Below, one piece after another: positions 3,839-40,746 of a stretch of DNA of 46,711 nt (the first letter of the stretch is position 1; each line of letters opens with the position of its first letter). The notes under the pieces were generated by a model. The model saw only the letters and a list, made by a program, of their open reading frames with translations, ran no database searches and was not told where the DNA came from. The stretch lies in NCBI GenBank assembly GCA_031292555.1, contig JARLGV010000064.1, positions 1-46,711 on the forward strand, in the 5' to 3' direction. The position numbers and the translations under genes are program-made. This DNA is from Fimbriimonas sp. GTDB taxonomy: Bacteria; Armatimonadota; Fimbriimonadia; Fimbriimonadales; Fimbriimonadaceae.

Positions 3839-4918
3839 CTAGGAGCCCTTGCGGGAAGCCTTCTTCTTTGAATGATCCAGACCATGGCCCAGGGTTCCGG
3901 AACGGATCTCGCGATGGGGATCCACCAGCACGGTCTTGTCCTCGTAGACCCACGGAGTCTTCCACAACAGCTTCAGCGCCGTCGTGATCGGCATCGTATG
4001 GAAGCGATCCGGCCAGAGTTCGGCGACTTTGGCTTCGATCTGCCTCGCGTACTTTCCGGGCGCGGCAGGAAACAGGTGATGGGCTACGTGAGCGCCGAAG
4101 TGCTGATGCCAGGGGTCCAGCCACCTCAGCGGCTTGGGAAGCGTCACGCTGAGGGACGTGGCAAGCACATCCCGGTCATCGGCGAGCGGGTTCAGGAAGT
4201 GGTTCGTCGCGATGTACGAAATCGCCACCGCGTTGCCAATCAGCAGGGGAACGAAGTAACCCCACCAAAACACTTGAGTGCCCAGATAGAGCGAACCGCT
4301 AACCCAGAGTGTCAACGGCACGAGGAACTGGGCGACGAGGAGGACCCGCTGGCCCGAGGTCGTCTTGCTGCTCCGCAGGTACGTAATCACCATTCGGATC
4401 ATCTGCTGGTCCATCCGATAGCTGAACGAACTAAAGATGATCAGGTTACGGGCAAGCGGAGAGATCCGGTATAGCCAACGCAGAATCGGGTTGTTCTTGT
4501 AGTCCTCTATCGTAAAGAGGTGATCGGGATCCACTCCCTCCACCTGCGTGTTATTGTGGTGGTCCGCGTTATGCCATCGCCGCCACAGATACGGGCCGAT
4601 TGCCAGGGGCGAGAACCCAAGCCCGGCCAGCAGGTCGCGGATCCACAGCTTCTTGACCGTTCCGCCATGGCAGATGTCGTGAGCCAGGAAGCCCATGCAC
4701 GCGAAAGTATGGCCGACGACCAAAGAAATCAGCGGCGCACTCCACCAGGAAAAATGAGCCTTGAGCACGAAGTAAGCCGCAGCTATGATCGCTCCGTGAA
4801 CCACAAACCAGCCGAGGTTGGAGTAGTCCGGCTCGAGAATCTTGGCCGGCAACGCCTTCTTCACCTGGTTCCGGTAGTTGGGAATTTGAGAGGAGGGGTC
4901 TCGGGTAACGGTAGCCAT
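3839..4918 (-). CDS. Membrane fatty acid desaturase
   Basis: 359 residues from the ATG at 4918; an upstream in-frame GTG at 4969 would add 17 residues without hydrophobic or conserved content. Three His clusters typical of membrane di-iron desaturases are visible: HDICH (80-84), HNADHH (116-121) and HVAHH (277-281). Hydrophobic helices surround them at about 38-55, 62-80, 193-225 and 225-240. The family uses O2 and electrons to place a double bond in acyl chains in the cytoplasmic membrane. The basic C-terminal tail (HSKKKASRKGS) is unusual but short. Regiospecificity cannot be read from sequence. Confidence 0.92.
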   Translation of the reverse strand: MATVTRDPSSQIPNYRNQVKKALPAKILEPDYSNLGWFVVHGAIIAAAYFVLKAHFSWWSAPLISLVVGHTFACMGFLAHDICHGGTVKKLWIRDLLAGLGFSPLAIGPYLWRRWHNADHHNNTQVEGVDPDHLFTIEDYKNNPILRWLYRISPLARNLIIFSSFSYRMDQQMIRMVITYLRSSKTTSGQRVLLVAQFLVPLTLWVSGSLYLGTQVFWWGYFVPLLIGNAVAISYIATNHFLNPLADDRDVLATSLSVTLPKPLRWLDPWHQHFGAHVAHHLFPAAPGKYARQIEAKVAELWPDRFHTMPITTALKLLWKTPWVYEDKTVLVDPHREIRSGTLGHGLDHSKKKASRKGS

Positions 4919-5021
4919 ATTTCGCGTTTTCTGGGGAACCACTATTGTGACGGAATACGCGTCCGTCACGCATTAGGATTCGCGGCACGAAGGTCCGCCG
5001 GCCCCGCGGTATCCTTTGGCG

Positions 5022-6200
5022 ATGCACGATGTGGTGATACTCGCAGGCGCACGAACCCCGATTGGGGCATTCGGCGGAGCCCTCTCTTCCTTCTCCGCCC
5101 CGCAACTTGGGGCCAAAGCGATCACGGAGGCGCTCCAACGCGCCGGCGTATCGCCGGACGAAGTGGATGAGACGATCATGGGCTGCGTGCTCACTGGCGG
5201 CCTTGGGCAAGCCCCCGCTAGACAGGCGGCCAAACTTGCCGGGATCCCCAACCGCGTCCCCGCCCTCACCGTCAACAAGGTTTGCGGTTCGGCGATGAAG
5301 GCGGTCACCCTTGCCGCACAATCGGTAAAGCTTGGAGAGAGCACAGTCGTGGTCGCGGGCGGAATGGAGTCGATGAGCAACGCGCCGTATTTGCTCGACA
5401 AGGCGAGAACCGGCTACCGCCTTGGCAACGGAACACTCATTGATTCGATGATCCACGACGGGCTGTGGGACCCGTACAACAACTGCCACATGGGCAACTG
5501 CGGCGACGCGACGGCAAGAGACCTTGAGTTCTCTCGTGAACTGCTAGACGCCTTTTCTGCCGAGAGCTACCGACGAGCGCTCGCTGCCCAGATTGCCGGC
5601 CGACTCGCCGAAGAGATCGTGCACGTCGAAGTGCCCCAGCGCAAAGGTCCATCTCTGGTTATCGCGCAGGATGAAGAGCCGGAGAAGGGCGACATCGACA
5701 AACTCCCGTCGCTACGGCCCGCGTTCGCCAAGGAGGGCGTTACGACGGCTGGGAACGCAAGTTCGTTGGACGACGGCGCGGCCGCATTGATCGTCACGAG
5801 CATGGAGGAAGCCGAACGGCGCGGGGTTCGCCCGCTCGGAAGACTCGTTGGTTCCATCACCCACGCTCAAGATCCGGAGTGGTTCACGACGGCGCCCGCA
5901 TACGCCGTTCAGAGGCTGCTCGCCAAGCACCAGTTGACCGTCGAAGACATCGACCTGTTCGAGGTCAACGAAGCCTTTGCGGTCGTCGCAATGGCGGTCA
6001 TGAAACTGGCTGGCATCCCACACGAAAAGCTGAACGTCAACGGGGGAGCGGTCGCCCTTGGGCACCCGATTGGGATGACGGGCGCACGGTTGATCCTGAC
6101 TGCGTTGCTCGAGCTTCGCCGCCGCGGCGGCAGGTACGCCGTGGCGACTCCCTGCATCGGAGGCGGTGAGGCAATGGCAGTTTTGCTCGAAGCGATTTAG
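5022..6200 (+). CDS. Acetyl-CoA C-acetyltransferase (thiolase)
   Basis: 392 residues from the ATG at 5022; a TTG two codons upstream is less likely. The thiolase triad is present: nucleophilic Cys88 in NKVCGSAMKA, His348 in GGAVALGHPIGMTGAR and Cys378 in TPCIGGG. The NEAFAVVAMA motif is also intact. Length is normal for a degradative or biosynthetic acetyl-CoA acetyltransferase. It joins two acetyl-CoA to acetoacetyl-CoA, or runs in reverse. It is transcribed alone, divergent from the desaturase and about 130 bp before glgA. Sequence alone cannot separate the PhaA role from the AtoB role. Confidence 0.95.
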   Translation: MHDVVILAGARTPIGAFGGALSSFSAPQLGAKAITEALQRAGVSPDEVDETIMGCVLTGGLGQAPARQAAKLAGIPNRVPALTVNKVCGSAMKAVTLAAQSVKLGESTVVVAGGMESMSNAPYLLDKARTGYRLGNGTLIDSMIHDGLWDPYNNCHMGNCGDATARDLEFSRELLDAFSAESYRRALAAQIAGRLAEEIVHVEVPQRKGPSLVIAQDEEPEKGDIDKLPSLRPAFAKEGVTTAGNASSLDDGAAALIVTSMEEAERRGVRPLGRLVGSITHAQDPEWFTTAPAYAVQRLLAKHQLTVEDIDLFEVNEAFAVVAMAVMKLAGIPHEKLNVNGGAVALGHPIGMTGARLILTALLELRRRGGRYAVATPCIGGGEAMAVLLEAI

Positions 6201-30060: not shown

Positions 30061-30137
<77 letters not shown>

Positions 30138-33438: not shown

Positions 33439-33515
33439 GGCGGCGTAGCTCAGTTGGTTAGAGCGAACGGTTCATACCCGTTAGGTCAACAGTTCAAATC
33501 TGTTCGCCGCTACCA
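33439..33515 (+). tRNA. tRNA-Met (CAU), elongator
   Basis: 77 nt with encoded CCA. Acceptor GGCGGCG pairs with CGCCGCT region, D arm GCTCAGTTGGTTAGAGC, anticodon CAT in the loop TTCATAC, T loop GTTCAAATC. It lacks the initiator features. A CAU tRNA-Ile modified to lysidine is the alternative, but the body looks like elongator Met. It forms the left edge of the accessory island. Confidence 0.95.
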
Positions 33516-33536
33516 AGTCTTGGCTCTACGCCATTA

Positions 33537-33755
33537 ATGGGGAATCCCCTTTCGGCCCCTTCCCCTGCCGTACGAGGCGTCCTTGGCCACTTCACATTGG
33601 GATTCATCCATCCATTCAGAGACGGTAACGGAAGACTCGCCCGATCTCATATGAATGCAATGCCTGCAAGCGAGGGCTATCCATGGGCGGTGAGTCACGT
33701 CGAAATCCGACAGTCATATCTCAAAGCCCTCGAACAGGACTTCGTCGATGGGAAC
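33537..33755 (+). pseudogene. Fic-domain fragment
   Basis: The frame contains VLGHFTLGFIHPFRDGNGRLAR, the complete Fic active-site motif HPFxDGNGR with its preceding helix, then MNAMPASEGYPWAVSHVE and a helix ending EQDFVDGN. Everything upstream of the last third of a Fic protein is missing, and the frame runs into the 33.8-kb direct repeat right after residue 73. It starts 21 bases after the tRNA-Met. It is a leftover of a Fic AMP-transferase gene cut by rearrangement, not a working gene. Confidence 0.75.
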
Positions 33756-33833
33756 TCAAAGGTGTTCGCCCCACATTCGCGGGCTCGATCAAATTGGTCG
33801 AACAGCCAAACTCGACTGATCGCAGCCCGGGCC
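33744..33833 (+). repeat. Direct repeat, left copy
   Basis: Forty bases (33786-33825) are identical to 43404-43443, and weaker similarity extends left to about 33744 (GTCGATGGGAAC against GTCAATGGGAAC) and right through CCGGGCC. Both copies have the same orientation. On the minus strand both encode LRSVEFGCSTNLI. Confidence 0.93.
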
Positions 33834-33908
33834 TGGCAATCGGAGATCCAACTCTTGCCGACACCATTTTGGACCGCCTCGTACACAATGCCCATCGCCT
33901 CGACATAA

Positions 33909-34211: not shown

Positions 34212-34736
34212 TCACCGAAGGTCTGGTGGGCACTCCTTGTCAATCGCCTCGAGCCACCACCAGTTGTACCACAGCAGTTCGTCAGCCCAATCTTCGATGT
34301 CTTCTTCATTCAATCGGCACCAGTCGGAAATCAGCAGCAACACGTCCCCGATCAACTCCTTCTGATCTCTGTTCAAAAGCATGAACAGCTTCTTGCTAGG
34401 TGGGCAACACATGATTTTGAGTGCAAGAAGACACCAGCCATCGTCAGCTTCGTCTTCTGCAGTGGTCCGTCCCACGAGGAATGCAAGGACTGCTGGCAGG
34501 AAGTAGATGAACCTTTTCGGCGTGAGCATGAAGCTGCAGAACATGTAGCTTTGTTTTAGGAAGGTGTCGGGAGGGATATCCGTCCACGCGACGGTCAGCA
34601 ACCTCTCGATGCAGTACTCCTCGTCCAACGACAAGGCGCCTTCAAGCAAGTCCGGATGTAGCAACTCCTCAGGCGGCAAGACGGGTGGGAAGACGAGAAA
34701 AATTCTCTCGGCTAACTCTCGGCTACGTTCTATCAT
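34212..34736 (-). CDS. DUF6714-like protein, putative immunity protein
   Basis: 174 residues. Acidic, soluble and rich in Leu/Trp: an N-terminal PPEELLHPDLLEGALSLDEEYCIERLL, a centre PDTFLKQSYMFCSFMLTPKRFIYFLPAVLAFLV and a C-terminal LLLISDWCRLNEEDIEDWADELLWYNWWWLEA. The central pattern (TPKRFIYFLPAVL) is like DUF6714 proteins, many of which occur beside RHS or other polymorphic toxin genes. Its start is 3 bp after the stop of the Cys-rich putative toxin, the usual toxin-then-immunity order. Immunity is inferred from context. Confidence 0.68.
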   Translation of the reverse strand: MIERSRELAERIFLVFPPVLPPEELLHPDLLEGALSLDEEYCIERLLTVAWTDIPPDTFLKQSYMFCSFMLTPKRFIYFLPAVLAFLVGRTTAEDEADDGWCLLALKIMCCPPSKKLFMLLNRDQKELIGDVLLLISDWCRLNEEDIEDWADELLWYNWWWLEAIDKECPPDLR

Positions 34737-34739
34737 GAG

Positions 34740-35225
34740 CTACTTTGGCCAGAATTGCACCCCAGGCTTGCCGCACTTCAACGCCATTTGCAGGCAGCCT
34801 GCCTTTAGCCCGTCACAGGCGGATTGACTACCGACCGGTGGGTGACAACCCTTACCCTTACTTACGCAGATACATCCCGTCTGATCGGCTTGGCACATCG
34901 TCATCTCGTGTTTACACCAGTTGGTTTCCCAAAACCGGTCAAATTTGTAGTCGCATTCAATAATGACAAGGGATCGAGCCAATGAACAAGCCACGTTTGC
35001 AGCCTCATCAGCGGCCAACCCCGGGCAATCACTGTAAGGTATTTTCCTGCAGCCTCGGGAAGCCGACCGGTCGCATAGGCGATGCACATCGTCATGTAGT
35101 TTATTGCACTTCTCGGTGTCCCTAGGCTTGTAGACTGATCGGGGCGGTGTAAGCGGCTTAGGAGCGTTTACGCTTCCAAAGGCCTGCCCCAGATAGTAAG
35201 GAACCATGAGCGTTGTACTGAACAT
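34740..35225 (-). CDS. Cys-rich putative RHS-associated C-terminal toxin
   Basis: 161 residues with 14 cysteines (40, 51, 59, 67, 80, 91, 104, 111, 118, 120, 127, 137, 144, 151) and no known catalytic motif that I can name. Patterns CNKLHDDVHRLC and ACSLARSLVIIEC recall small Cys-paired toxin tails of RHS proteins. It is in the same frame as the RHS remnant upstream and separated from it by one TAA, so it was probably the tip of an RHS protein. The internal ATG at 35225 may or may not start translation. The immunity-like gene follows 3 bp later. Confidence 0.6.
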   Translation of the reverse strand: MFSTTLMVPYYLGQAFGSVNAPKPLTPPRSVYKPRDTEKCNKLHDDVHRLCDRSASRGCRKIPYSDCPGLAADEAANVACSLARSLVIIECDYKFDRFWETNWCKHEMTMCQADQTGCICVSKGKGCHPPVGSQSACDGLKAGCLQMALKCGKPGVQFWPK

Positions 35226-35246
35226 CCCGCCAAACTGGGGGTCCCG

Positions 35247-35561
35247 TTATGGGCAAGAGGGCGCACCAGGCAGGGAGCCAGAGCCCTCGACACCGGTGTC
35301 TGGATCGGTAACCGTGCCCCCTCCACCAAGCAATTGGCGTCCAGTTGGATCCACATAGACAGTGGGGCATGCATCTACATAAACGTAGGCCCTTTGCGTT
35401 GGCCAGAGTGGGTCGACAGTTGTCCACCCTCCATCGCCACTTGAATGGTGTCTTGCAAGATTGTATTGCTCTGCATGTAGCCGATTGGTCCTTCGCGAAC
35501 CAAGGCTCCCGACCCAGCCATAGATCGACTGCGTCCCAGTAGTCGCCAGGTGAGGAACCAA
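35247..35561 (-). pseudogene. RHS core C-terminus remnant
   Basis: About 104 codons end in the RHS hallmark: GDGGWTTVDPLWP, then AYVYVDACPTVYVDPTGRQ, equivalent to the DPLG...NLYAYVxNxPVxxVDPxG box before variable toxin tips. The RHS beta-barrel (over 1000 residues) is absent upstream, where the ankyrin gene begins instead. The frame continues through a TAA (35247) into the Cys-rich tip. It looks like a displaced, orphan RHS C-terminal cassette. Confidence 0.75.
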
Positions 35562-35692
35562 AGTTACTTAGTCCACATCGAATGAGACGGCGAGCACGAT
35601 CGTACTTCGCAGATTATTCTGGTCGCATCTCTTTGTATGTGAGCGCAGACTCGCCACCTCCAAAGCTGTACTGGTCCTGCGTCGGCTCATTT

Positions 35693-37348
35693 CTAAGTCG
35701 AATTCGATTCCCTCAGCGCTTTGGTCAGGCTTGCTCTAACGGCGCGGCAACCATAAGTGTTGGTTTTGTGGGCGTAGCTCACACTTCCTGAGAAGACATC
35801 GTTGGTCGTGAAGGAAACATAGTATGCGTCACCTTCATTGTTTTCGTATGAAGTGGACGTCCAGTATTCTGACGATTGCATCTCTGGAAAAAACAGAGAT
35901 CTTAACTTCAGCTTACCGAGGTCTTGAGGGACGCCCAAGAGTCGGTTTCGCTGGCTATTGAGCTCACCGAGGGTTTCGCTCAATGAAGCCAATTCGTCCC
36001 TAGATGGCAAACGCCAATCAGAATGCTTGGCAAGCGAAAGGGACTGAGCGAATTCCATCGCTTCCATCCAGTTTCGCTTTTGGGCATCGTCGTTCCTCTG
36101 CCATGTAAGCCCAGTACGGTTGTCTGTCACGGTTTCATCACCATGGTCAGTGAAGCAGTTGACGGCGCGTTTCTGTGCGGCGGCGACAAGCACGGGCTTC
36201 AATTCGTCTGGAGCAATGCTAAGAGCTGAATATCCCTTATCATCGACGAAGCTGACGTCAGCTCCTGCAAGGACTAGCAGCTCTGCACACTCCCAAAAGC
36301 CCTTATGGCAGGCAAACATCAGGGCTGTAGCCCCCGCTCGGTTCCTCGCATCCGAGCTCGCGCCGCTCGCGATTAAGGCGCGTACGCAAGCAGAGTGGCC
36401 CTTTCGTGCGGCCTCCATTAGCGGAGTAACGCCCAATCCAGCAGCAACGTTTACGTTTGCGTTCGCGGCAATAAGGATATCGACACATTCAACTGAGCCG
36501 CTAACTGCCGCTGCCATGATTGCGGAAGCGCCTCCATCACTGCCAGAGCGGCTACTCTCTAGCTTCGCATCTACGTCCACTCCAGCATCAATCAGAATCT
36601 TGACGCAGCCAGCCTTGCAGGCAAACGCCGCAACTGTGAGCGCGGTTAATCCCCTCTCATCCATCATGCTGGCATCCGCGCCAGCTCTGATCAGTGACCT
36701 GACACAACTCTCATGGCCCATTTGAGCGGCAACCATTAGCGCCGTTGTAAGGTCAGGGTCAGTGGCATCCGCGTCCGCGCCAGCAGCGATAAGTGCGTTA
36801 ACGCATTCGATTCTATCCTTGTGACATGCCGCGATGAGCGCCGTTCTCCCTTGGTCATCTTTGGCATCGATGTCAACTCCTGCGAGGACGAGTGCCTCGA
36901 CCTTGGCCAAATTACCCTTCTCCACCGCTCTAGTGAACTCAACAGCACATGCGCGGCACTTGCATCCCCTCATTCTTTGGCTGTTCTTGCGTTCAGTCCC
37001 GCAGATCGCACAAGTCTGGCAATCCTTGGTCCAATCGTGTTCTTGGTCGCGAGTCTTGCCGCACACGGAGCACGTGCATCCTGTCCATGTGTGGTCGCTC
37101 TGGCGGGTCGTGCTGCATATAGCGCACTTCTCGCAGTCCCCACTCCAGTCGTGTTCCTCGTCACGCGTCTTGCCGCATGCGAAGCACTTGCACCCTGTCC
37201 ATGTGTGGTGGCTCTCACGTATTGCGCCGCATACAGCGCACTTCTCGCAGTCTTCGCTCCAATCATGTTGTAGGTCGCGCATCTTACCGCACGCAGTGCA
37301 CTTACAGCCTTCCCAGCTATGTGAACCAACTAGGCACTTTACGTTCAT
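35693..37348 (-). CDS. Zinc-ribbon/ankyrin/DUF1566 protein (paralogue 1)
   Basis: 551 residues. Residues 1-135 are tandem Cys/His modules (CKCTACGKMRDLQHDW, DCEKCAVCG, HTWTGCKCFACGKTRD) with many CxxC pairs and HxW signatures, probably zinc-binding. Residues of about 137-400 are ankyrin repeats of 33 residues (TALIAACHKDRIECVNALIAAGADADA and similar). About 405-545 is a DUF1566/Lcl-type domain (VTDNRTGLTWQRN, WRLPSRDELASL, YWTSTSYENNEGDAYYVSF). No signal peptide. It lies just upstream of the RHS remnant on the same strand; ankyrin proteins can serve as immunity proteins in polymorphic toxin loci, which is the best guess here. Confidence 0.85.
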   Translation of the reverse strand: MNVKCLVGSHSWEGCKCTACGKMRDLQHDWSEDCEKCAVCGAIRESHHTWTGCKCFACGKTRDEEHDWSGDCEKCAICSTTRQSDHTWTGCTCSVCGKTRDQEHDWTKDCQTCAICGTERKNSQRMRGCKCRACAVEFTRAVEKGNLAKVEALVLAGVDIDAKDDQGRTALIAACHKDRIECVNALIAAGADADATDPDLTTALMVAAQMGHESCVRSLIRAGADASMMDERGLTALTVAAFACKAGCVKILIDAGVDVDAKLESSRSGSDGGASAIMAAAVSGSVECVDILIAANANVNVAAGLGVTPLMEAARKGHSACVRALIASGASSDARNRAGATALMFACHKGFWECAELLVLAGADVSFVDDKGYSALSIAPDELKPVLVAAAQKRAVNCFTDHGDETVTDNRTGLTWQRNDDAQKRNWMEAMEFAQSLSLAKHSDWRLPSRDELASLSETLGELNSQRNRLLGVPQDLGKLKLRSLFFPEMQSSEYWTSTSYENNEGDAYYVSFTTNDVFSGSVSYAHKTNTYGCRAVRASLTKALRESNST

Positions 37349-37378: not shown

Positions 37379-38518
37379 TCACCGAATACGAGTTGACTTT
37401 GTCGCATGACAACGCCAGGTTCGGCGCTGCCCGCGAGACAGGCTGTGCTGGATGATCTTCCAATTTTCCACAGATCTTTCCTGCGCGCCTTGGAGCTTTT
37501 CGGGCGACACGTTCAACGAATCGACCAAGTCTTCGCGGCTTGGCACCCCTCCGTAGGATATTACAACAGTCTGGGATACAAGGCCGAAGACCGATTCATG
37601 CGCAACCGCTACCGCATCATCACCGATCTTGAAGGCCTTACCGCAACCTGAGCAAACGAGCGTTGGAGCCGCTGACGTCTTCGGATTTGACTCCTCAGTG
37701 ATAGCTCCTGCGTCCTTGAGGAGCAAGGCAACTTTGTCGGATTCAGCGAAAGAAAATGAAGTCTTCCCATCGTCAGTCGTCGCATTGACATCTGCTCCTG
37801 CGCTCAAGAGTGCCTTGATGTTCGCTTCTCTTCCTCCAATCGCTGCAAACATAAGTGCCGTAACGCCAATATTGGTCTTTCCGTTGACGTCAGCCCCCAC
37901 TCTTATCAACGCCTCGACATCATCTGCCTCCCAACTATTTGCGGCCAGCATTAGGAGGGTTAAGTCCTCAAACCTCGTGTCTGCGTCCGCTCCCCCTCTG
38001 ATCAACGCAATTACTGAATCAACGTGGCCGCGACTATGCCGATCAGATGCCTTTTGAAGTGCATTGCGGCCTTCGGTAGTCCTGGCGTGGACATCGGCTC
38101 CAGCAGCGATCAGCGTTCTCACGCTATCGACGTTCCCCCGACTCGCAGCCTCAATCAGCGCTGTTACTCCGTCCTTCTGCTTAGAATTGACATCTGCACC
38201 TGCGTCTATGAGGGCTTCGATGCTTGCGGCGTCTCCAGTTGATGCCGCCAGTGACAGCGCTGTCTCACCAGCGCTTGTTCTGGCATGGACATCGGCTCCA
38301 GCGCCGATAAGAACCCTGACGCAATCTGTTTGGCCGTTATTGGCAGCCACCATGAGCGTTGTGAGTTCGTAGCCCAAGCTCGCACCAACATTCGCACCAC
38401 TAGAGATCAGTTTGTGAACAAGATCCACGGGGCCTGTCTTGGCTGCGTCGCGGAGAGCTGCATCTAGTTCTCTTTGCCGTTGTTTGCGCCAGCCGAACAA
38501 TTGGTTCAATGTTCTCAT
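37379..38518 (-). CDS. Ankyrin-repeat protein, frameshifted at both ends (paralogue 2)
   Basis: 379 residues from the ATG at 38518 (a TTG at 38536 is possible). About eight ankyrin repeats (TALIEAASRGNVDSVRTLIAAGADVHA) precede a C-terminal zinc-ribbon-like region (LVCSGCGKAFKIGDDAVAVA, NWKIIQHSLSRGQRRTWRCH) shared with paralogue 3. The last residues are out of register: shifting frame after RRTWRCH gives DKVNSYSVKT, matching paralogue 3. Its expected N-terminal zinc module is on a separate 37-codon frame directly upstream. It may be a pseudogene or a recently split gene. Confidence 0.75.
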   Translation of the reverse strand: MRTLNQLFGWRKQRQRELDAALRDAAKTGPVDLVHKLISSGANVGASLGYELTTLMVAANNGQTDCVRVLIGAGADVHARTSAGETALSLAASTGDAASIEALIDAGADVNSKQKDGVTALIEAASRGNVDSVRTLIAAGADVHARTTEGRNALQKASDRHSRGHVDSVIALIRGGADADTRFEDLTLLMLAANSWEADDVEALIRVGADVNGKTNIGVTALMFAAIGGREANIKALLSAGADVNATTDDGKTSFSFAESDKVALLLKDAGAITEESNPKTSAAPTLVCSGCGKAFKIGDDAVAVAHESVFGLVSQTVVISYGGVPSREDLVDSLNVSPEKLQGAQERSVENWKIIQHSLSRGQRRTWRCHATKSTRIR

Positions 38519-38520
38519 TC

Positions 38521-38634
38521 TCAAGTTTTCTCGCAATCCTTGCCCTTGTACTGCCCCTCATCCCGCGTCTTGCCGCATGCTGAGCATTTGCAGCCGTCCC
38601 AACTATGTGAACCAACAAGGCACTTTACGTTCAT
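38521..38634 (-). pseudogene. Detached N-terminal zinc module of paralogue 2
   Basis: 37 codons, MNVKCLVGSHSWDGCKC then SACGKTRDEGQYKGKDCEKT, nearly the same as the first 37 residues of the 551-residue paralogue. The TGA at 38521-38523 comes exactly where the other copies continue into the next Cys module, and the ankyrin ATG follows 2 bases later. It is most simply the broken-off 5' end of paralogue 2, though a free microprotein cannot be excluded. Confidence 0.7.
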
Positions 38635-39867: not shown

Positions 39868-40746
39868 TTACGATTTGACTTGATAGGAGTTGACCTTATC
39901 GCACCCATGACAACGCCAGGTTCGGCGTTGCCCACGTGCCAGGCCCTCTTGAATGATCTTCCAGTTTTGGCGTGCGTTCTCCCGCGAGGTGTCAAGGGCG
40001 ACCGCGGACTTGTTCGAATCACCGAAGAAGTCCACTAGGTCCTCTCGGTCGGGGGAGGGGCCCTCGGAATCGATCACCGACTTACTGATCAAGCCGTAGG
40101 CGAATTCGGGAGCAACTGCTACGGCATCTTCACCGATCCTGTATGTTTTGCCGCATGCCGAACAAGTAAGGGTGGGATGCACTAATCGAGGTGCCTTCCG
40201 CAGAACGGCTGCCACATCGTCTCGCCTGGCCACCATGAGCGCCGTATAGCCGTTGACATTCTTCGCCATGACATCTGCCCCAGCGGCGACGAGGACTTCC
40301 ACGAGCTCCCTATGCCCTCCATATGCTGCCGTTGTAAGGGCGGTATCACTATGCTTGTTCTTAGCATTTACATTTGCACCTGCGGCGATCAGTACTCTTG
40401 CCAGTTCCGTATGGCCATAGACCGCAACTTTAATGAGTGCCGTCTCGCCGTCGCTGCCACTCGCGCTAACATCTACCCCTGAAGCAACCAGCGCCTTGAC
40501 ACGTCCCTCGTCGCCGAGTATGGCGGCGCCTAACAAAGAGTTGATGGCGTCGGTGTTGGTTGCCCCACATCGGGCGCATTTCATGATTCCCTGGCTGAAA
40601 TCGTGGCCCCCGTCGCGAGTCCTTGCACACGCAAAGCACTTCTCGCAGTCCTTGCTCCAGTCATGCGCTTCATCCCGCGTCTTCCCGCAAGCCGTGCATT
40701 TGCAGCCGTTCCATAAGTGCGATCCTACTAGGCACTTTATAGTCAT
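39868..40746 (-). CDS. Zinc-ribbon/ankyrin protein (paralogue 3)
   Basis: 292 residues. N-terminal zinc modules (KCLVGSHLWNGCKCTACGKTRD, DCEKCFACARTRD, MKCARCGA) cover about 1-62. Four ankyrin repeats follow (TALIKVAVYGHTELARVLIAAGANVNA). The C-terminus (LTCSACGKTYRIGEDAVAVA, NWKIIQEGLARGQRRTWRCHGCDKVNSYQVKS) has CxxC pairs of a second zinc ribbon. This is the intact template against which the damage in paralogue 2 is seen. Cytoplasmic by sequence; function unknown. Confidence 0.85.
   Translation of the reverse strand: MTIKCLVGSHLWNGCKCTACGKTRDEAHDWSKDCEKCFACARTRDGGHDFSQGIMKCARCGATNTDAINSLLGAAILGDEGRVKALVASGVDVSASGSDGETALIKVAVYGHTELARVLIAAGANVNAKNKHSDTALTTAAYGGHRELVEVLVAAGADVMAKNVNGYTALMVARRDDVAAVLRKAPRLVHPTLTCSACGKTYRIGEDAVAVAPEFAYGLISKSVIDSEGPSPDREDLVDFFGDSNKSAVALDTSRENARQNWKIIQEGLARGQRRTWRCHGCDKVNSYQVKS

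Follow-up and report, generated by a model that had tools for sequence, protein, structure and literature searches.

The window analyzed here, an entire contig (C120; 46,711 nucleotides) of the draft genome of an uncultured Fimbriimonas sp. (6.46 Mb in 140 contigs), carries on its minus strand what is probably an orphan rhs-CT/immunity cassette that has decayed at its RHS end, with a Cys-rich tip that appears to be a strongly diverged relative of the Ntox16 toxins. The kinship with Ntox16 is proposed because the immunity gene behind the tip is a remote member of DUF6714, the kind of gene found next to Ntox16-like tips elsewhere in the phylum (Armatimonadota).

Organization and probable decay of the cassette

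The RHS end box (35340-35552, minus strand; LATTGTQ...WTTVDPLWP...PTVYVDPTG) represents the final ~71 residues of a B-type RHS module, as indicated by TIGR03696, tblastn and phmmer. It is followed, on the same strand and in the same frame, by a linker (35226-35339) with a single TAA (35247-35249), and then by the Cys-rich tip, a toxin candidate of 161 amino acids with 14 cysteines and an ATG of its own (34740-35225). A gap of 3 bp (34737-34739) separates the tip ORF from that of the immunity candidate (174 amino acids; 34212-34736, minus strand). The box-bearing ORF (35247-35561) ends with the TAA. The box and the tip are offset by 336 nt within one minus-strand frame that runs from 35567 to 34740 with this TAA as the sole stop; at the local composition, 275 codons with no more than one stop would arise by chance with a probability of ~7e-5. 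The initial annotation proved exact on recheck with respect to the ORF coordinates, the single in-frame stop, the 161 codons, the 14 cysteines and the 3-bp gap. Could the TAA or the truncation be an assembly error in a gene that is actually intact? The contig does come from a draft assembly of 140 pieces, but the 5' part is missing altogether rather than merely interrupted, so that two independent errors would be needed, which makes this explanation highly improbable.

The presence of an RHS end box and the loss of the RHS core, both claimed in the initial annotation, are borne out. The box scores 22.4 bits (E 1.3e-4) against TIGR03696, below the curated cut-off of 32.5, and congeneric RHS proteins align to 35340-35552 in tblastn searches with E values down to 1e-15 and ~47% identity. 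These searches detect no further RHS sequence in the window, including the spacer located where the RHS module is expected to start (35553-35692, minus strand), and the box module itself lacks its first ~60 residues and a start codon. Just 5' of position 35340, in the frame of the tip, is the sequence PTVYVDPTG, which fits the PxxxxDPxG motif that marks the border of RHS tips (PMC3150448). The box has more than 35 relatives among the mini-RHS ORFs of congeners (phmmer). In its own genome, the draft state of which makes the result provisional, there is no second box of the same subfamily, the next match having an E value of 0.2; the five other RHS ends in this genome all belong to other subfamilies.

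Upstream of the cassette is an ankyrin-repeat gene with an Lcl_C domain (35693-37348, minus strand), and beyond the immunity candidate, on the plus strand, there is a tRNA-Met gene followed by a truncated Fic-domain fragment (33439-33908). Three ankyrin-repeat genes are located nearby (35693-37348, 37379-38536 and 39868-40746); a repeated Cys motif (W-GCKCxACGKxRD) is shared by two of these at the N-terminus, and the Lcl_C domain lies at the C-terminus of one. The region also includes two tRNA-Met (CAT) genes, 30061-30137 and 33439-33515, that are 3.3 kb apart. The Fic-domain fragment (33537-33908) directly follows the second of these and covers only positions 63-91 of the 93 in the profile.

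Distribution of the tip-immunity pair

Among the 61 relatives searched, the tip and the immunity candidate each match one other genome, and in the same place, namely contig C28 of G005, a congener represented by an uncultured Armatimonadetes MAG (CAILEM010000028.1). The immunity homologue (4256-4885) is ~29% identical to the window protein (E 8.4e-7). The tip homologue (4889-5167), ~33% identical, consists of the C-terminal ~80 residues only, and the stretch CQA[DE]..CxCVSxG..CxPP is conserved between the two tips. The G005 pair is located less than 2 kb from an RHS gene with a different Cys-rich tip. A second DUF6714-like ORF is found beside the pair on the opposite strand (L009:5128-5751, plus strand); it scores 6.3 bits, a value reached by none of 500 shuffles. 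The description of the window genes as a displaced RHS tip with its immunity gene is supported, in that congeners carry dozens of similar cassettes and the pair recurs in a second species.

No further homologues were detected in the 291 genomes of the order and phylum, and a scan of the genome collection retrieved the G005 locus only. Viral contigs contained no homologue, phages none of the window tip, and plasmids none of the window tip, the Ntox16-like tip of L071 or the immunity protein of L096. The one plasmid match of the window immunity protein (E 0.4, to a transporter) and a tip match in G021 (L006), which falls in a lysyl-tRNA synthetase region and in a frame with a stop, are attributed to chance.

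These scans also bear on the idea that the tip and the immunity protein now make up a free-standing toxin-antitoxin pair whose expression starts at the ATG of the tip. Both ORFs are intact, start with ATG and are 3 bp apart, and an orphan rhs acting as a toxin-antitoxin pair is claimed for Salmonella (PMC7043789). Nevertheless, a ribosome-binding site at the proper spacing precedes neither the tip ATG nor the immunity ATG, and the order, phylum and collection scans yielded no free-standing family elsewhere, so that such a pair seems improbable.

The immunity candidate as a remote DUF6714 protein

The initial annotation had labeled the downstream gene DUF6714-like. Pfam does not detect DUF6714 (PF20461) in the immunity candidate at E<=1. 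Yet, when compared with a lineage profile built from the 17 DUF6714 proteins that Pfam recognizes in the phylum (the window protein being excluded), it scores 25.4 bits (single-comparison E value, 4e-10), whereas none of its 500 shuffles reaches this score and none exceeds 3.8, in agreement with the label. In hhalign comparisons, the result is 80% against a set of five members and look-alikes (A4) and only 2% against the three strict members. The immunity homologue from G005 scores -1.2 on the DUF6714 profile and, taken alone, is not recognizable. The window protein shows the features of the family, that is, an N-terminal helix, W-x-D/E-I/V and then the (L/F)TP..F.YFLPA signature, but differs from recognized members in lying under the detection limit of Pfam and being reached by the lineage profile only. 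The two-sequence AF2 model is all-alpha, with nine helices and a pLDDT of 67, and has no counterpart in the PDB (best E 1.2). At the level of sequence comparison, the assignment of the downstream gene as a remote member of DUF6714 is supported.

Many DUF6714 genes in the phylum (L019, L080, L084, L086, L100 and others) are located away from RHS genes. Either DUF6714 is more than a family of RHS immunity proteins, or the RHS-distant copies are orphan immunity genes. DUF6714 is named in no paper within the literature searched.

DUF6714-like genes behind Ntox16-like tips

Ntox16-type tips were identified in two cassettes of the genus, L061 through a match to PF15523 below the cut-off (E 0.012) and L052 by pattern. 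Searches with PF15523 added L070, L071 and L072, and searches with PF20461 added L101 and L096, whose upstream RHS tips reach E values of 1e-17 and 1.6e-5, respectively, on the five-tip Ntox16-like profile. In six of these seven loci, with the exception of L070, the gene after the Ntox16-like tip scores between 8.4 and 43 bits on the DUF6714 profile, compared with 19 of 19 control genes behind other tips that score below 0. The association between the DUF6714-like gene and the Ntox16-like tip has a Fisher's exact test P value of ~3e-5, or ~5e-4 when L096 and L101, both found through DUF6714, are left out. At G004:C48, the Pfam models of Ntox16 (E 0.0125) and DUF6714 (E 0.017) independently match adjacent genes.

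In a 2012 survey, Ntox16 is described as an alpha-helical domain with an R and a [DNE]xxH motif that is found on RHS proteins, and no immunity protein is listed for it (PMC3482391); hence the link between DUF6714 and Ntox16, which was tested in this one phylum, is probably new. The linkage suggests a testable role for DUF6714, immunity against Ntox16-type RHS toxins, and provides a candidate immunity protein for a toxin family that had none in the survey.

Proposed relationship of the tip to Ntox16

In agreement with the initial annotation, in which the tip was assigned to no nameable enzyme family, the window tip has no match in Pfam, NCBIfam or the PDB. In particular, it does not match Ntox16 (PF15523) at E<=1, and it is absent from the hits of an open search (E<=5) with the five-tip Ntox16-like profile. 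Pfam matches to DUF2576, MyTH4, MobI and DUF7577 that came up in the analysis are far under the cut-off and are considered chance. Structure prediction for 34740-35225, proposed in the initial annotation, was not informative: the single-sequence AF2 model has a pLDDT of 37 and was discarded as unusable.

Some comparisons hint at a link to Ntox16. Of 36 tips left out of the Ntox16-like profile, the window tip gives the best hhalign alignment to it (single-comparison E value, 0.004). With HMMER, it comes third among these tips, and its score is attained by 35 of 2000 shuffles in which the cysteines stay in place (~0.018), which is a weak sequence test. The Ntox16-like pattern, itself weak, is located in residues 40-92 of the tip. 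Within this region, Cys 51, 59, 67 and 80, Arg 84 and Cys 91 parallel the tip of L096 (VHDLCDRS...C...DC...AC..AR), a locus (G153:C36) in which the RHS end is intact and a DUF6714 gene is adjacent. At the aligned place, the window tip has no [DNE]xxH motif, the histidine of WCKHE having a Trp at -3; the motif is missing from L096 as well. The window tip resembles Ntox16 in being RHS-borne, in having the same immunity family in the phylum and perhaps in the order of cysteines and an arginine in its first half, but differs in the lack of a profile match and of [DNE]xxH and in its longer, different second half. The resemblance, backed by the immunity gene, is a lead toward kinship with Ntox16 and does not make the tip a member of that family.

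The tip may represent a new effector type, as the initial annotation suggested, but its immunity family and Cys/Arg pattern point to a diverged tip of the Ntox16 type, which is already known from RHS proteins. In its strong form, the tip would be a genuinely new domain unrelated to Ntox16 and the DUF6714-like gene a general-purpose immunity scaffold. Consistent with this are the absence of a family match in the libraries searched, the non-significant similarity to Ntox16-like tips in the open search, the distinct conserved C-terminal half (CQA[DE]..CxCVSxG..CxPP) and the occurrence of DUF6714 away from RHS genes. However, among the cassettes tested, DUF6714-like genes are found only behind Ntox16-like tips, and the Cys/Arg order is the same as in L096 (LCDRS...C...C...C..AR), so that a new domain, albeit a serious possibility, is less probable than a diverged tip of the known Ntox16 type. 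As to RHS proteins that carry this tip, the searches gave no close fused homologue, but the tip of L096, next to a DUF6714 gene, is likely a remote one.

Mini-RHS cassettes and split RHS genes in the lineage

The cassette in the window belongs to a large set of cassettes and is damaged in comparison with the others. In congeners, these cassettes are ORFs of 175-400 residues, often in tandem, that combine an RHS box with differing tips, usually Cys-rich, and most of them are followed by a small gene. Tandem arrays of self-starting mini-RHS genes are present in L050, L051, L054 and L061 (G011:C10, G006:C1, G016:C138 and G004:C48, respectively), and short pieces of the 3' end of the core gene are repeated ahead of many array genes. 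The B-type mini-RHS genes of the genus (L050, L051 and L061) and the family (L101) share with the window copy the RHS box, the Cys-rich tip and the small downstream gene; they are complete ORFs with an ATG, whereas in the window copy the initial ~60 residues are missing and a stop precedes the tip. Several of the Cys-rich tips (L009:2097-3077, L050:3356-4309, L050:6087-7052 and L054:3-581) contain a DxxCxxHD motif behind Cys-Gly that recalls phospholipase A2 toxins; those tested have no Pfam phospholipase match.

Many RHS genes of the lineage are split. The fetched loci contain 99 RHS boxes: a separate core ORF ends ahead of 39, 11 are fused with the core end, and 49 have no core end upstream, although a few loci overlap or belong to other RHS subfamilies, so that these are not clean frequencies. 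At the 34 clear split junctions, found in 13 genomes, the core ORF ends with a VWDGxDYLGE-like motif and a stop, and the ATG of the box-tip ORF is 2-8 nt from the first base of that stop, overlapping it in 15 cases (e.g., TAATG). A Shine-Dalgarno-like motif is present in the bases before this ATG in 27 of the 34 junctions, against an expectation of 14%. Complete core frames that end at the split motif (L150-L153 and L157) span 1088-1316 codons, and the second ORF comprises the last ~110 residues of the cage and the tip. Split loci include L009:1-3077, L050, L051, L052, L057, L058, L063, L114, L123, L136, L147, L150-L153 and L157. Programmed frameshifting as the cause of the split is disfavored because the offset between the core and tip frames varies (26, 11 and 2).

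TcB/TcC pairs appear to be the nearest analogy to the split core and tip genes. By this analogy, it is possible, if short of probable, that the lineage has a two-gene RHS system, consisting of a core gene A (~1100-1300 codons) and a self-starting gene B, in which arrays of B and immunity genes might serve as a magazine of tips that one core could load in trans, without recombination; the window would then carry a broken B gene with a diverged Ntox16 tip and, with DUF6714, the first immunity protein for Ntox16. The core/tip split bears on how RHS tips are exchanged.

Likely origin and fate of the cassette

In RHS systems, the cage carries the tip, which is released near the DPxG border and acts in the recipient, and the product of the neighboring gene confers protection. 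By extension of this mechanism, the box and the tip would originally have been parts of a single polypeptide, namely the end of an RHS delivery protein that bears the toxin. The tip would have been carried by the cage and cut off close to the DPxG motif, and in producing cells and their siblings it would have been bound by the downstream protein. With the start of the module gone and a stop acquired in the present genome, the tip would no longer be deliverable unless the cassette recombined onto an intact RHS gene, and no gene with a matching end was detected in the draft genome. The toxicity of the tip, its neutralization by the neighbor and any present use of the locus are predictions of the same kind. 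The intact immunity gene, which plausibly could still protect against neighbors with an intact version of the toxin, is the likeliest part of the cassette to be of use at present.

The initial annotation had placed the cassette among displaced tips kept as spares. This part of the proposal is weak: considering the missing start, the in-frame TAA and the lack, in this genome, of a second box of the same subfamily (next match, E 0.2), a ready spare is less likely than a relic or an immunity gene that has been kept. Taken to the extreme, the box, the tip and the immunity gene might all be non-functional remains in a region near tRNA genes where fragments (of Fic and RHS genes, alongside the ankyrin genes) accumulate. 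The truncated box, the in-frame stop, the truncated Fic fragment next door, the lack of a matching recipient in the genome and the fragmentary state of the G005 tip fit such a plain dead relic; it is still unlikely given that the adjacent frames of 168 and 175 codons remain open, with chance probabilities of 6e-4 and 4e-4, and that the immunity protein retains family features captured by the DUF6714 profile. A cassette that decayed at the RHS end and kept its immunity gene intact remains the preferred reading.

Comparison with known orphan rhs modules

Damage of this kind has a precedent in Yersinia, where the rhs portion kept by an orphan module is interrupted by an in-frame stop (PMC3150448). 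For orphan pairs of Dickeya, toxicity and specific protection have been shown (PMC3150448), and in Salmonella an orphan tip was rescued by recombination (PMC3967940). Enterobacterial orphan tips usually lack initiation signals (PMC3967940), unlike the orphan tip genes in the arrays of the present lineage, which keep their own start. The window genome differs from those with enterobacterial and Dickeya orphans in that, as far as the draft assembly goes, it contains no intact rhs gene whose end matches, and the tip and immunity families in the window differ from those described for these orphans. The architecture is shared: a short rhs end with PxxxxDPxG, a polymorphic tip and an immunity gene behind it, as in the enterobacterial and Dickeya orphan rhs-CT/rhsI modules (PMC3150448, PMC3967940). 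The spare role does not stand, but the filing of the window genes as an orphan rhs-CT/immunity cassette, a known kind, does.
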